From Agaricus subrufescens (lineage: Eukaryota; Basidiomycota; Agaricomycetes; Agaricales; Agaricaceae), in NCBI GenBank assembly GCA_029945375.1, contig CM057064.1, forward strand, positions 1,302,001 to 1,366,000: DNA of 64,000 nt. Direction: 5' to 3'. The notes under the pieces are model-generated. The model saw only the letters and a program-made list of their open reading frames with translations. It was not told the DNA's origin and searched no databases. Made by a program: the position numbers and the translations under genes. Positions 30,703 to 38,699 of the stretch are shown here, piece by piece. How positions within the stretch are numbered: position 1 is the stretch's first letter; each line of letters begins with the position of its first letter.

Positions 30703-30711
30703 GGATCGGGC
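30703..30711 (+). repeat. Left target-site duplication GGATCGGGC
   Basis: Direct copy of 36791-36799, directly outside the left terminal inverted repeat. Confidence 0.8.
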
Positions 30712-30820
30712 CAGGCTCCTTCCCATCCCCTCTGCTGAGCCGCTCGAGGTCACGTGGGTTCCCACAAACTTTGTTTGCGAGCGTCAGCGAGGGGCTGGCG
30801 ACATACGGGTCGGCAATCAC
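30712..30820 (+). repeat. Left terminal inverted repeat of the helicase/DUF6589 element
   Basis: Starts CAGGCTCCTTCCCATCCC, contains CACGTG near 30751, then the conserved 33-bp block at 30777-30809 (with GAGGGGCTGGCGACATACGG inside) and ends TCGGCAATCAC. It pairs with 36673-36790 in reverse orientation. The middle part between outer and inner blocks is diverged. Confidence 0.85.
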
Positions 30821-30930
30821 CGAGGCTCACAGCCACCCTCTTATGTGCCGAACTTGCTCAGACACAAAATGTCGTTTTTGGTAGTAGACTAATTAATCTA
30901 TTTATACATACGTCACACATATCTACTCTC

Positions 30931-33683
30931 ATGTCTGCATCCCTGGCCCTGCAACTCGAAGAACTCACCTCGCCGTGGACATCTGAGCGCATCAGAGACT
31001 TAGTCCAATCAAAATTTCATAAGCGGGCATGTTGGTATCAAATAGAAGCCGCTAGAGCCTTCTATTCCGGCCACGATGTGATCGGTTGCGCTCCTACTGG
31101 TGCCGGCAAAACACTGTCGTTTTGGATTCCTTTGCTCATGGCCAATGAGGATGGGATTTCCAAAATCCTCTTTGTGATCAGTCCTCTCAACGTACTTGCT
31201 AAGGATCAGGCCAAGGAGCTGAAGAAGGCCGGCATTTCGGCCATTGCTGTTGCTGCCGAAAATGCAACAGTAAATACATTCAAGGTACATATCTCATTTT
31301 GTAGCTCAAATCTCCGCTCACTATGGCCAGAATATTGCCTCTGGAAAGTATCAGGTTGTTATCACCAACCCGGAAATCATGGTGACGAATGACCGGCTCA
31401 AAAAACTGTGGACTACATCAACATTCACTCAACGTATCCTTGGTTTTGTTTTCGACGAGGCCCACTGTATAACTCAGTGGGGGAAGTTCAGAAAAGCATA
31501 TCTCGCTGTTGGAATTATCAGATATTTGATATCTGATCCTGTACCATTTTACCTCGCTTCGGCAACTCTTCCCCCACCACTACTCGCCGAAACACGAAAG
31601 CTCCTTCATATGAACCGTGCACACACTGTCGATCTATTATGCAGTAATGAGCGGCCAGATATAGCGCTCATGGTGCGTCAAATGGCCTACCCTGGATCTT
31701 CCTATCGCGACCTCGAGTTTCTTGTGCCATACAACTGGCAAGACGGCATGTTACAACCACGGAAGTTCATAGTTTTCTTTGATAATATCAAAGAATGCGA
31801 AGGAGCCAAAGATTTTTTCGACGGACGATTACTTCAAGAGCATCATGACAAGATCATGTATTTTCATTCAACAATGAGCTCACAGTATCGTGATAAGATG
31901 CTTGACGCATTTCGAAGAGGGGACCTTTGGGGACTTCTCTGCACTGATGCGTTTGGTTTGGTAAGTTGTACATATCTAAATAATTGAATTGTTTACTTAC
32001 AAAGAAAAATCAAGGGAATGGATGTTGGCGACATCGAGGTGGTTGTCCAATACAAAGCTACATGCGAATTCTCGACGCTGTGGCAGCGGTTTGGTCGTGC
32101 GGCGCGGCGTGAAGGCGTACAGGGAGTCGGAGTGTTGCTTGTGGAGAAAAAAGATGTGACGGCTAGCAGGAGGACAAAAAAGGCATTCGCATCGACGGGC
32201 AAACGATCAAGAGACGACTCACAGGGGGGAAGAAAAAAAAGGCAACGACGAACATATGAGATGGCGGCATCAGTCATTGTCAAAGAAGAGGAGAAGCCCG
32301 GGAATGTCGCAACTGCGGACCCTATCACAGACCCTGCCAAGGAATGGACGTGTGAACGAAGGAAGAGATATTTAAAGCCGGAAATAGCACCAAACGATCC
32401 GACTAACACAAAAAAAGGGAAAAACCCGGGTGTAATCCCTGGGTCTGCAATCGACGACTACATTAATCTCCCCCCCTTTATCCCATGTCGTCGTCTAGTC
32501 TCTCAGTTATATTTTGCAAACGATACCAGAGGTAAGTACTATTCTTTGTTTCCGGCTGTTCGATTGCTTATACTTTTAATAGTAATTGATGGGCATCTCC
32601 AGTGTGACCCTGTAACGAACGGCGGCTGCCAGCGTTGCAGACCCCGCACTTGCACCATGTGTTGCGACAAATGCAACCCAGGCTATTTTGTGGACTTCTT
32701 TGTCTGCCCAACAAAACGACCATCTGCGCCCCGACGTTCAAATATCAATCAAGACTATATTCGGCTGCCTCAGCACAAGACGTTTGAGCAGGCATTATTT
32801 GACTGGCGTGGTACTCAAGCACTCCAACAATTAGGGGAGGATGTTATTTCAGACTTAGGGCCGGAACTCCTCATGTCCGGAGAGGTTATGTCCCGCATAG
32901 TTGATTGTTGGACTTTTGGGAAGATAGCTAACCTTTCTGACTTGCGTAGGGAAACAAGCTGGGCAGACGAATGGATAGACTTGTGTGGTCAATCGCTGAT
33001 TGACCTTGTCATCACTCATTCCAACTTCGTAGCTCAAGAGGCTGCTAACGATCTCACTTCCGCCACCATGACCTCGGAACCACTGATCCTCCTATCGGGA
33101 ACTTCGACGGATACTGTCACTAGCAATACCAATATGGTATCGTCAACATCGTCGACTCTACCTGCCTCAGCACTGCCTCAAATATGTTCCGAAACTGTAC
33201 ACCTTCCATCATCAACGCCACTGTCCCCTCCCCCCTCCACACCATTAATGCTGGCCCCTTTAGTCCCGCAAAAGCGTGTGCTAAGATGCAAGTTGTGTCA
33301 AAGAACGGGCCATAATCGTATGTATCATTTTCACATCCCTCTTAATAGAGAACTCAACAAGACACGAACATGTAGAAAGAACATGCCCACTTCGTGATAC
33401 ATCACATATATCGAGAGAGGTAAAAATTGAACTAATTGATCACATAGAACAAGAAAATCTCCATCGCATGACCCTGACTCCCGTTGCCACGACTTCGCTC
33501 CCCACAGCCTCCACTCCAACTGCTTCAGTGGCTCGACCTCCACTCCGCTCCCGTGGACAACAACAAGAAAAATACATATTCGAAAGTTATGACTGGCTGA
33601 GCTATGATCGACTTTCTCAAGTTGCAAATTTGCAGGCAACTCAATCATCAACGAATAATGTTCCATCATCGAAGATATCTTGA
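30931..33683 (+). CDS. RecQ-like DEAH helicase of the mobile element
   Basis: SF2 helicase, about 823 residues, exons 30931-31284, 31331-31960, 32015-32531, 32583-33317 and 33448-33683. All motor motifs are intact: Walker A APTGAGKT (residues 54-61), ITNPE, DEAHCITQWG (about 160), LASATLP, YFHSTMSSQYRDKMLDAFRR, TDAFGLGMDVGDI (across intron 2) and motif VI LWQRFGRAAR. After a basic linker (KKRQRRTYE) comes a Cys-rich zinc-binding cluster in exon 4, CQRCRPRTCTMCCDKC, and near the end CKLCQRTGHN. No Rep/HUH domain is seen, so it is not a Helitron protein. The C-terminal 43 bp of coding sequence overlap the DUF6589 gene on the other strand. Likely role: unwinding during transposition of the element it lies in (inferred). 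Confidence 0.88.
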
Positions 33684-36631
33684 TCATCCTCGAGGTCCGG
33701 TTCTTCTCTGGTGTCTTCTCTCATCCTGTCGTCAATTTCGCTCTCTCTCTCGGCTAGGCTGCTTGTGCTCGAGTTGTGCTGATTCTCTATTTGCGCTCTC
33801 ATGCTCTCTTGCTTCGCTGCTTTCAAGACTTGTGCCCTCCTGGTTTCCTCAACATTAGCTGTCAGCTTGCTCATTCCAATTTCCATCGTGTTCGGTATTT
33901 TGTATCCTGCATCCCGCCCTGCAATAAAACTGTTTACCCGATGCTCTATCATATAGTTGGCTAGCCTCGTGAACGTATGCTTCATTTTGGGCGGTGAGTG
34001 ATGAGTTGTTTTGTGAGATAAACAAAACATCGATTCGAATTGAGATCGAACGTCTTTATAAACTTCAATCAGCGGGGAGGCTTCGAGCATTCGATGTACA
34101 GTATGATTCGAACCCGATCCGCCAAATATTCTTTTGATATATAAATTATTGTGCTCGATAACCCAATCAATTGCGCGGAAGTGATCGGGTTTACCGGTGG
34201 GATTGACAAGAGAGTTATATCGAATTGCACGACTGTCATGAAGGTGAGTGTCAAACTTACTAATGAATGAATGATGCAACATACGCTAATGATTTTGGAT
34301 ATAGGATATACATGTTTTCTAGGTATTGACGGAGTTCTCTGGCGTATTTTACCTTTCCGCACCCCATAAAGAAGTACATCCAGGTAGGTAAGCATCGATC
34401 AAGTCGCCCAATGTCGCCATGGTTCATAGCGTAAGTCGTTTCTTCATATAGAAGAAAATCCTTGCTTAGAGTCCTGGTCAGCTCAAATACTTTATCTCGT
34501 TCACTGTCATCCTTCTGAGCCTCGCAGAGCAGGCTTGCAGGTGCGACATAATTTTTGACAAGTGTCTCTGCGATCTGACATATGTCCTCCCAACTAGGTT
34601 CCGAGTTGGCCCATTCACTGAGGGATGAAAACCCATATCGACGTTGCACCTCTTCACGCCATCCTTCAAGACGAAGTACTATGCCTACGTGTTGGATCAC
34701 TTCGTGCATTTGACGGAAACCAGGGTTTGCCTGAATTTTGCGCGTTTCCATTGGTCGAAGTTTGGCAACATAATTGATTAGTGCTGCAGGCACCTTTTCC
34801 GCATCTGGTCCGCTATTAATATGTCGCCTCCAAATAGCGTCAGCGCAAGCCATACGAACGTGGAACCATCCAGGACAATAAATGACTGGTTGGAATCGTT
34901 GAAATGATGTCACGTCCACACAACGAGATGCTTGAAGACTCCGTATGTTTCTTCCTGTTCCTAGGTCACCAAAAACTAGGATATTGTGATTGCCAATTTC
35001 AACAGGGATTTTCTTTTTCTTTGTTGATGCGGAGCCTACTGGCTCTGGTTCCCGAAATTCCATATCTGATCCAGAATTTGTACCCTCCTCCACTTCCTCT
35101 CCAACATTCGCTTGTTGGAAGAACTCTTGCATTACGGTTGCGTTTTTAGCGGGAGTATCAGGCCCTGTTTCTGAAGCACGAAGTGGAACTTGCGTTGTTT
35201 TTATGACAGGTATGCACTCAATCTCTTCAGGACGCTTGAGCTGCTTGTTGAATTGTGCGAAGGAGGGTGGACCGTGTTGAATCAAATCATCGAGGAACTT
35301 CCATCGATTGAAACGATCACGATAGGTGAGATTGTTCTCGTCTCGTTTGTCTGACGGTAGAGCTGACAGGAGTTCTTTTGTGCTTGCTGGAGGAGGTGGA
35401 TTAAGCGTAAGTTCACGGAGAGTATCAGAGAAAGCTAGGTCCTCCTTTGTAACGCCGTGATTCAATGGAAACATAGATGCTGTAGTCAGATGTACGAGGG
35501 TGTCCGACATAGAATGCTCCTCAGTAGGTCTAGAGTGAGGGAGATCGACATCCAGGTTATCATAAGCGTATGAAGTTAGAAGCGTTGCACCGAGATCCCG
35601 CATTTGAGTAGTTGCCTCAGCAGACAAATGCCTCATTGCCCGATCTATTGTTTTGACGGCGACTGACACTCCAATATGTGCCAGAAATTGCCGAACTTGC
35701 TCCGCGACATTGCAGGACTGCAGAAAGACACCAACGAGTGCCTGCAGCATGTTGGCTCGTTGGTTTGTTGCTTGCATCATAATGCTGATGCAAGTAATCT
35801 TTTTCTATAAGCTGTTATGAATAAAAATTTCTTGAACGACGGACAAATACTCACAACTTTTATCAGTGTATTCCACCGATTTTCCAGTTGGTCTTCAACA
35901 TCCTCTGGCTCATCTTCATCTTGACCAATAAACCAATTTAGTTCTTCAACGTTTTTCTTTCGCTTTGATGCTGGTTTTTTCCCATCCTTATTGTTTAACC
36001 GTTGTTTCTCCCTAATCTCCCGTTCAATTCTTCGCCGTTCAGCCAATTTCGGATCAGCTTGTAACAACTCCCCTACAAGCTCCCATAAATCTGGTGCATG
36101 TTGAATGATACCCTCCTCAATCCGTTTGATAGAACACTCTTGCATGCGTTCTGCGGTCATTGACGTGGCAGTAAAATGGAAGCCATGTTGGACTTTTGTG
36201 AGTTCGTGGACTTGAGATTTCAAATTTTCCAAATATGCTTCTCGCATCCAGATGTTCACAGTGGACTGTGTTTGTGGATGTACAGATAGGTGGTGAAGCA
36301 GGGATGGCAACGTGTATGTAAAGCTGGAGGTGTACAATGGGTTCACCGCTCCTGGTTCGCTCAAGATACGTTGGACAAAGCTTTCCAGGGGGATGTCGTT
36401 ACACTGGAGTAGGTTCACTGCATGTTGAAATGCAGATTCTTTTGCACTAGGGGAATACATGGGTAGGGAAAGAAAGAGTAGTATTGCTCTACTAATATTA
36501 CAACACGTATGCGAAGAGACTGTGCTTCTCGGTGCGTCGCTGGTAGGCAAGGCAGCCATTGAGTTTGCTTGACTGCCTTCTCTGCCTCGATGCTCGAAAT
36601 AGCTCAGTGTTACGGCTGTCACGCCCGCCAT
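33641..36631 (-). CDS. DUF6589 protein, candidate transposase of the mobile element
   Basis: The ATG at 36631 lies 41 bp inside the right TIR. Exon 1 (to about 35854) encodes a helical N-terminal region with a basic stretch (NNKDGKKPASKRKKN). Exon 2 begins KKITCISIMMQATNQRAN and carries the family core: SYAYDNLDVDLPHSRPTEEH, LVHLTTASMFPLNHG, ILVFGDLGTGRNIRSLQASR and WFHVRMACADAIWRRHI. A last exon has NPTGKPDHFRAIDWVIEHNN, RMLEASPLIEVYKDVRSQFE and a Gln/Ser/Glu-rich tail ending DIFDDGTLFVDD. These motifs match the Agaricomycete DUF6589 family (named from memory; function undescribed as far as I know). Conserved acidic residues (FGDLGT, CADAIW, DWVIEHN) could form an RNase H-like DDE site, which is inference. 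No stop or frameshift was noticed. Confidence 0.85.
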
Positions 36632-36672
36632 TTATATTCAAGATGTATTATGCAAGCTGTGGGAAAAGATCA

Positions 36673-36790
36673 GTGATGCCGATTTCCCGTATGTCGCCAG
36701 CCCCTCACTGACGTTCGCTGACCCCTTTGGGTCAAAAGTATCGAAGATCACGTGCGAAATGAGTCAGTGAGAGGGATGGGTAGGAGCCTG
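36673..36790 (-). repeat. Right terminal inverted repeat of the helicase/DUF6589 element
   Basis: Reverse complement of 30712-30820 with gaps. The outer end reads GGGTAGGAGCCTG on the plus strand. The inner 33-bp block at 36686-36718 differs from the left copy at two positions. CACGTG lies near 36749, as in the left TIR. Confidence 0.85.
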
Positions 36791-36799
36791 GGATCGGGC
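36791..36799 (+). repeat. Right target-site duplication GGATCGGGC
   Basis: Direct copy of 30703-30711, directly outside the right terminal inverted repeat. Confidence 0.8.
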
Positions 36800-36867
36800 C
36801 ATCAGATCTGTGCTACTGTCATTAGAACAGTTTGATTCCACGTGACCAAATATCCTGTCTCTTCACC

Positions 36868-38699
36868 ATGATCCGGACGTTTGTTGCGGCTGGAAGGACA
36901 GCTGGAAATGCCCTTCACAGGCGCTGTTTCTCCACTACGAGGCTGGCTAGAAACAACCTGCCGACGACAAACTCACCTATCGTCAATAGACTCAACTTCT
37001 TCAACTCGGTAACCGGATCTTCCACCCAGATACCGACATACCGCGTCCTCGATGGTGTTGGTCAACCCATCGAGGGTGCTGAAATGCCGGAGGTCCGTTT
37101 CTCTTCTGGTTCCTTATATTTACTGAAGCTCAGTATATGACTTACAGATTGACAAAGCGTTCGCCATTCGTTTGTACGAGAAAATGCTACTGCTTCCCGC
37201 AATGGACAATGTTCTTTATAACATCCAACGACAGGGGAAAATCTCGTTCTATGTCAGTTTAATTGATGTTTCTGAGTGACTTGTCTAACGTTTGTGCTTT
37301 AGATGACCTCTGTATGTGTCTCTTTCCACCAAAACATGTTCCGGATGCCTACACCTTCTATAGCACGGAGAGGAGGCTACGATAATCGGGTCAGCTGCTT
37401 CATTAGCTCAAGATGACGAGTGAGTCTCCCAACCACATCCTGTTAATCTTCTTGTTAACCTTCATCAGGGTTCTAGGTGAGACACGCAATCTCGATGTTG
37501 GAAAAGATTCTCAACGGCATAGGTCAATATCGCGAAATGGGTGTCCTCCTCTGGCGCGGATTCACACTCGACCAAGCCATGGGCCAATGCTTTGGAAATG
37601 GGAACGATTCGTCTGGCAAAGGTCGTCAAATGCCTGTCGTAAGTTTTCTTCCCCTATGTTGTTGGGCCCCGGCGGCAACTAACAAATATGCTTCGGATCG
37701 GAACTAGCATTTCGGATCACCAGAACATCACTTCCACACCATCTCTTCACCCCTTTCCACACAGATACCTCAGGCTGCTGGTGTTGGGTACGCGCTTAAA
37801 CGCGATCCACAACGTCGGTCGAAGAATATAGCAGCATGCTTCTTCGGCGAAGGCGCGGCCTCTGAAGGAGGTACATAAGATATCATTGAGATCTTTTGTC
37901 ATCAACTAAAATTTCGTTTCAGATTTCCATGCTGGATTCATGTTGGCATCCACTGTACCCTCTCCCACATTATATATCTGCCGCAACAATGGGTTTGCCA
38001 TAAGCACACCTTCCACTGAACAATACTATGGTGATGGTATCGCGGCCCGTGGACCTGGATACGGTATAGATTCGATACGCGTGGATGGAAATGATATCTT
38101 TGCCGTAATGAATGCTGTGACCGAAGCTAGGAAGCGATGCCTTGAACAAGGTCGGGCTGTACTAGTCGAAGCGATGACCTATCGGTAAGTCTCCAACTCT
38201 TCTCTCGTTCCACCAACAAGACAATTAAAATCCAATTCCCCGTGATTAGTGTAGGTCACCACTCAACTTCAGACGACTCCTTTGCATACCGTGCTCGTTC
38301 CGAAGTCGAAGATCGTAAACGTATCGACAACCCTATCACCCGATTCCGCCTGTTTTTGGAATCTCAAGGATGGTGGGATAACGAAGCGGAAGCAGAACTG
38401 AAGGCACGCATTCGTGCAGATGTGATGACAGCTTTCAAACGTGCTGAAACTATGAAACGTTGTGAACTTGGTGAACTCTTCACCGACGTCTACGGTGGAC
38501 AAGAGCCCTGGAACATCGTAAGTATCTCAAACTGGTCATTTGATTGATTGATGTTAATGCGTGTGTTTTGTTAAAATAGAAAGAACAACGAGAGGAACTC
38601 GGTCAGTTACTCAAAAAATACGGACAAGTTTGGGAACCGTGGCGAACCGAGCTGGCTAAATTCAAGAATAATGGTAGAGATCTGGTCGAAGGTCGTTAG
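36868..38699 (+). CDS. BCKDHA: Branched-chain 2-oxoacid dehydrogenase E1 alpha subunit (mitochondrial)
   Basis: Thiamine-diphosphate enzyme subunit for Val/Leu/Ile breakdown in mitochondria. Exons: 36868-37092, 37148 to the FY|GTCAGT donor, 37303-37311 (9 nt), 37364-37419, 37469-37476 (8 nt), 37523-37638, 37708-37870, 37923-38184, 38250-38517 and 38580-38699. The N-terminus is a presequence ([29 protein letters not shown]). Family motifs: QGKISFYMTSHGEEA across the 9-nt exon, [18 protein letters not shown] across the 8-nt exon, [27 protein letters not shown] (ThDP-binding region), [11 protein letters not shown], and [13 protein letters not shown], the phosphorylation-loop region. Length and ends fit the family. 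An in-frame ATG-like extension upstream is not needed. The mobile element ends 69 bp before the start codon. Confidence 0.93.

Follow-up and report, generated by a model that had tools for sequence, protein, structure and literature searches.

The genome of the mushroom Agaricus subrufescens (44.65 Mb) contained, within a 64,000-nucleotide stretch of contig C8 (CM057064.1, positions 1,302,001 to 1,366,000; hereafter the window), a RecQ-like helicase gene lying tail to tail with a gene for a DUF6589 protein, and this locus raised the question of whether the two are host genes or the genes of one mobile element and, if the latter, of which kind. They were found to lie inside a complete, recently active DNA transposon of 6,079 bp (window positions 30712-36790, limits set by comparison with other copies), most likely of the helicase-bearing AcademH kind. 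Its components were as follows (window coordinates):

30703..30711, no strand: left copy of the 9-bp target-site duplication GGATCGGGC, placed by means of other genomic copies
30712..30809, forward strand: left terminal inverted repeat, with outer block CAGGCTCCTTCCCATCCC at 30712-30729 and inner 33-bp block at 30777-30809, found by inverted-repeat detection and terminus alignment, the end being common to other copies
30931..33683, forward strand: RecQ-like helicase gene, 847 amino acids, five exons (30931-31284, 31331-31960, 32015-32531, 32583-33317, and 33376-33683), from inferred splicing, Pfam, and NCBI family
33641..36631, reverse strand: DUF6589 gene encoding a probable DDE transposase, 962 amino acids, three exons (36631-35855, 35804-34285, and 34232-33641), from Pfam, inferred splicing, and fold comparison
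36686..36790, reverse strand: right terminal inverted repeat, with inner block at 36686-36718 and outer block extending to 36790 (...GGAGCCTG), found by inverted-repeat detection and terminus alignment
36791..36799, no strand: right copy of the 9-bp target-site duplication, placed by means of other genomic copies

The termini CAGGCTCC...GGAGCCTG were inverted and imperfect, each of about 100 bp, and were composed of outer arms (30711-30729/36773-36791; 19 nt, 95%) and inner arms (30777-30809/36686-36718; 33 nt, 94%, i.e., the 31 of 33 identities given in a preliminary description made from the letters of the window); local alignment of the two termini scored 93, compared to a maximum of 38 among 1,000 random pairs of window segments. 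The perfect 9-bp duplication GGATCGGGC enclosed the element, and it was placed at 30703-30711 and 36791-36799 since the element limits were fixed by the other copies; the element coordinates are thus exact to the single base. The outer coordinates 30703 and 36799 of the preliminary description proved exact, and its 9-bp direct repeat was real, but the extension of that repeat to "up to 12 bp" was a chance flank match, because the next letters of the right flank happen to match the left end of the element. Its proposal of an autonomous DNA transposon holding both genes was likewise supported, at the level of an autonomous-looking element.

Three further full-length copies were found in the genome, and all four differed at two sites over 6,079 bp. 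The 18-bp end, searched across the whole genome with up to two mismatches, gave 78 matches, compared to 2 for a reversed control, and neighboring matches within 12 kb formed 17 inward pairs, no outward pair, and two same-direction tandems. The 17 inward pairs had 13 perfect 9-bp duplications, one perfect 10-bp duplication, two 9-bp duplications with one mismatch (both in identical flanks), and one case with none; removal of three apparent segmental duplicates left 14 pairs (12 perfect, one with one mismatch, and one with none). An 18th end pair, outside the list of 18-bp matches and belonging to a copy on C7, was also perfectly duplicated, and the duplication sequences differed between insertion sites. 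In one of the 13 perfect 9-bp cases (on C9), the right end was doubled and only the outer right end fitted. Short copies of 79, 753, 1,010, and 1,080 bp carried the element ends and perfect duplications, which points to non-autonomous movement. The flanks of the insertion shared by C1 and C2, joined with a single 9-bp target, matched contig C6 at 109 of 109 bases, with 100% identity continuing for 940 bp in one direction and 1,559 bp in the opposite one; the C6 locus is a scar-free empty site for this insertion, and the C1 and C2 copies, with their identical flanks, represent a duplicated segment. Copies that share these ends but differ in duplication, short derivatives, and an empty site, all anticipated in the preliminary description, were therefore present, the empty site being that of an insertion other than the one in the window. 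No full-length match was found in the genome as an empty site for the C4:3241649 copy, and a search with the right flank of the window insertion gave no second copy in the genome. A near-identical full-length copy (C11:1123813-1129891, L012) had no target duplication at all, and neither of its flanks had a second copy in the genome.

Several further observations were made on these copies. A segment of about 2.5 kb was 100% identical at C2, C1, and C6 (L010, L011, and L073), twice with the transposon and once without it, and by eye its open frame was like that of a NACHT-type NTPase. Ends doubled at a spacing of 16-17 bp were present at C9:2501494-2501528 (L018) and C11:617094-617127, possibly one end inserted beside another. 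Two end pairs of 11.2 kb and 8.4 kb were considered as cargo-bearing elements and rejected: their open frames looked, by eye, like Gypsy-type and Copia-type retrotransposon genes, and the pairs are therefore probably defective copies with later nested retrotransposon insertions; judged by eye from open frames, nested Gypsy-type and Copia-type retrotransposons seemed to lie in L077 and L078 on C6, whose ends and duplications were good. Regions C6:986931-1208055 and C9:708024-929119 each contained two copies about 210 kb apart with identical 20-bp flanks (8,360 bp in both regions; 11,159 and 11,150 bp), which suggests that a segment of more than 200 kb is duplicated or that the assembly includes two haplotypes.

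Both gene models were built from consensus splice sites, open reading frames, and continuity of the domains, with alternative splice choices existing, and the 3' ends of the two genes, arranged tail to tail, overlapped by 43 bp. The helicase model ran from an ATG at 30931 to a stop ending at 33683, and its protein had the Pfam domains DEAD (E 1.3e-24) and Helicase_C (E 1.7e-17); the choice of the last intron was guided by a possible zinc knuckle of CCHC type at the C-terminus, which this intron completes (zf-CCHC_2, E 0.0087, under the Pfam cut-off). The top NCBI family was RecQ (TIGR00614; E 8.1e-38, 130 bits, under the model's cut-off of 220), and the nearest solved structure was 1oyw, listed as ATP-dependent DNA helicase and taken by us to be E. 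coli RecQ, with WRN, RECQ1, and BLM among the next.

The DUF6589 domain (Pfam) made up the second half of the 962-amino-acid protein, in which conserved D341, D539, and E792 were candidate catalytic residues. When a DUF6589 homologue was compared through its AlphaFold model, which was confident, the closest folds were those of RNase-H-fold transposases, by distant likeness, with the hAT (Hermes) and P-element enzymes on top. These distant matches support well the assignment of the DUF6589 protein as a DDE transposase whose RNase H fold carries a helical insertion, as in hAT, P-element, and RAG1 enzymes. hAT and P elements make 8-bp duplications, which differ from those found here, and they are not known to carry a helicase gene. 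The DUF6589 sequence profile gave only chance-level rows against PDB sequences, with no hAT or P-element match among them, and nine DUF6589 homologues matched no further transposase family in Pfam at E up to 10. No paper tying DUF6589 (PF20231) to a transposase was found in the literature searched, most subscription papers being outside that search. Because of the fold resemblance, the candidate D, D, and E, and the co-occurrence with the helicase (see below), DUF6589 is very probably the transposase of this element, so that the role proposed for it in the preliminary description gained model-based support as a probable one.

DUF6589 exceeded the Pfam cut-off at 24 loci in the genome (counted by eye from 42 rows of profile matches), and a helicase lay within 7.5 kb at 23 of them. 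The two genes were convergent, as in the window, at 22 of these 23; the sole paired locus not scored so (C3:293506) had a convergent pair and, in addition, another stretch of helicase. The clustering used all 30 DUF6589 rows but 37 of 68 helicase rows, and 53 of 111 helicase candidates were scored, so the helicase counts are lower bounds: there were 29 clusters, 23 with both genes, four with DUF6589 only (C1:979025 and two short pieces on C6 and C9, these three not among the rows over the cut-off, plus the C7 copy), and at least two with helicase only. The 24th locus was this C7 copy (C7:1628234-1633550, L080), a 5,317-bp element with matching ends, a perfect 9-bp duplication, and DUF6589 kept. 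It was 98.6% identical to a C12 copy (L081) over the first 4.2 kb, followed by scattered aligned pieces only, and the left flank was identical in both; when the first part of the helicase was used in a translated search, nothing was found in the C7 copy, against three stretches in the C12 copy. The helicase of the C7 copy is thus eroded between intact element ends.

The best-scoring named homologues of both genes, among the matches listed, came from Agaricomycetes such as Agaricus and Leucocoprinus. The neighbor pairs among these matches are examples from the best 120 per search and give no count: DUF6589 and helicase relatives had adjoining locus tags in Leucocoprinus birnbaumii (g12305/g12306), Tricholoma furcatifolium (004012/004013), Cerrena zonata (014705/014706 and 004608/004609), and Pleurotus djamor (g7144/g7145), and tags two apart in Rhodofomes roseus (g6060/g6058). 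One predicted protein of Paramarasmius palmivorus (P0089) contained both DUF6589 and helicase; both domains being on one strand, either the gene order there is unlike the convergent layout or the prediction merges two genes.

If the locus consisted of two host genes in a segmental duplication, surrounded by chance or unrelated repeats, the identical flanks of the C1 and C2 copies would be accounted for; this explanation was refuted by the perfect empty site and by the varied 9-bp duplications of other copies in different flanks, and the short copies with the same ends also argue against it, which leaves it next to no probability. A real transposon with the helicase as a passenger, taking no part in transposition, is a more serious candidate, since the short copies and the C7 copy move or persist without a helicase in cis; it is nevertheless judged unlikely, given that helicase sequence has been kept at 23 of the 24 DUF6589 loci with one layout at 22 of 23, and that the same two genes adjoin in other Agaricomycetes among the matches listed. 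Kolobok elements insert at TTAA, whereas the duplications here were of 9-10 bp and varied by site; moreover, the present helicase was a separate convergent gene, not one downstream of the transposase domain. An assignment to KolobokH, that is, to Kolobok transposons that carry a RecQ helicase and have been reported from fungi alone, accordingly appears very improbable, although that second fungal group, as it is presented in PMC9587614, shares with our element a RecQ helicase in a fungal DNA transposon.

The nearest match was AcademH, which was compared by its description in citing papers: helicase-encoding fungal DNA transposons with 9- or 10-bp duplications (Kojima 2020, Mob DNA 11:15; as summarized in PMC10045372, PMC10799480, and PMC8290104). 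In the account of Academ given by a fungal-genome survey, most copies had recognizable domains, for example a DEAD helicase, and had been assigned to the class of overlapping genes (PMC6416283). A fungal DNA transposon with a helicase gene and 9- or 10-bp duplications is common to AcademH as summarized and to our element, in which there were (i) a superfamily 2 RecQ-like helicase, (ii) terminal inverted repeats, (iii) a 9- or 10-bp duplication (perfect at 14 of 17 end pairs and at one further pair), and (iv) by fold comparison, a probable DDD/E transposase of RNase H fold. These AcademH descriptions do not mention DUF6589, and the likeness is one of described features. AcademX, the other lineage of the Academ superfamily, is characterized in the summary of PMC10045372 by 3- or 4-bp duplications and by a nuclease in place of the helicase, whereas the duplication here was of 9 bp and no nuclease domain was among the Pfam matches of either gene. 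The new superfamily claimed in the preliminary description was not borne out, because helicase-bearing DNA transposons with 9-10 bp duplications had been described in 2020 as AcademH, with KolobokH also known, as far as the citing papers describe these groups. Such a superfamily would resemble AcademH only in the helicase and the 9-bp duplication and would have an unrelated transposase; the unknown function of DUF6589 in Pfam, the finding of no paper naming it in the literature searched, and the occurrence of RecQ helicases in more than one DNA transposon group (KolobokH, in the account of PMC9587614) speak for it, but the helicase, the duplication length, and the fungal range all agree with AcademH as summarized (PMC10045372 and PMC10799480), as do the DEAD helicase domains in most surveyed Academ copies (PMC6416283), and we regard it as improbable. 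A similarly small chance was given to DUF6589 as its own transposase superfamily apart from Academ, which would have recruited a RecQ helicase independently and would use it to restore the donor site by gap repair, much as flies employ their own BLM helicase after P-element excision; if this were true, a single mobile element would account for most DUF6589 genes and for many of the orphan RecQ genes in mushrooms. The element is thus a probable new, recently active family of AcademH.

For this AcademH-like transposon, the DUF6589 enzyme would bind both inverted ends, excise the element, and join it to target strands 9 bp apart, gap filling then giving the 9-bp duplication. The RecQ-like helicase would be a dedicated partner of the transposase, and three roles may be considered for it: opening of the DNA at the ends, an influence on the stagger, or assistance in copying the element into the gap left at the donor site. 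This last role has a parallel in flies, in which repair of the P-element excision gap has been used to study helicases including BLM, as outlined in PMC8951532. Our preferred guess is that the helicase unwinds the cut ends or acts in gap repair from the sister copy, which would restore the donor site and raise the copy number.

A possible start codon (36868) followed the window insertion at a distance of about 70 bp; it would belong to an E1-alpha gene with E1 dehydrogenase domains (PF00676; window 36799-36870), and with this closeness the insertion may alter the promoter or leader of the E1 gene.

All 24 DUF6589 loci over the cut-off in this genome were element-like, 23 with a helicase and the 24th between intact element ends, and therefore the many mushroom proteins named "DUF6589 domain-containing" and their RecQ-like neighbors probably belong to transposons and not to the host. 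The analysis offers a useful re-identification of DUF6589, until now of unknown function, as a probable transposase, the helicase-bearing kind of transposon being already known as AcademH. If the re-identification is true, the numbers of genes and the sizes of RecQ families given for Agaricomycetes would be corrected, and the four near-identical copies with open frames, together with the perfect empty site, make a good system for asking why a DNA transposon carries a helicase.
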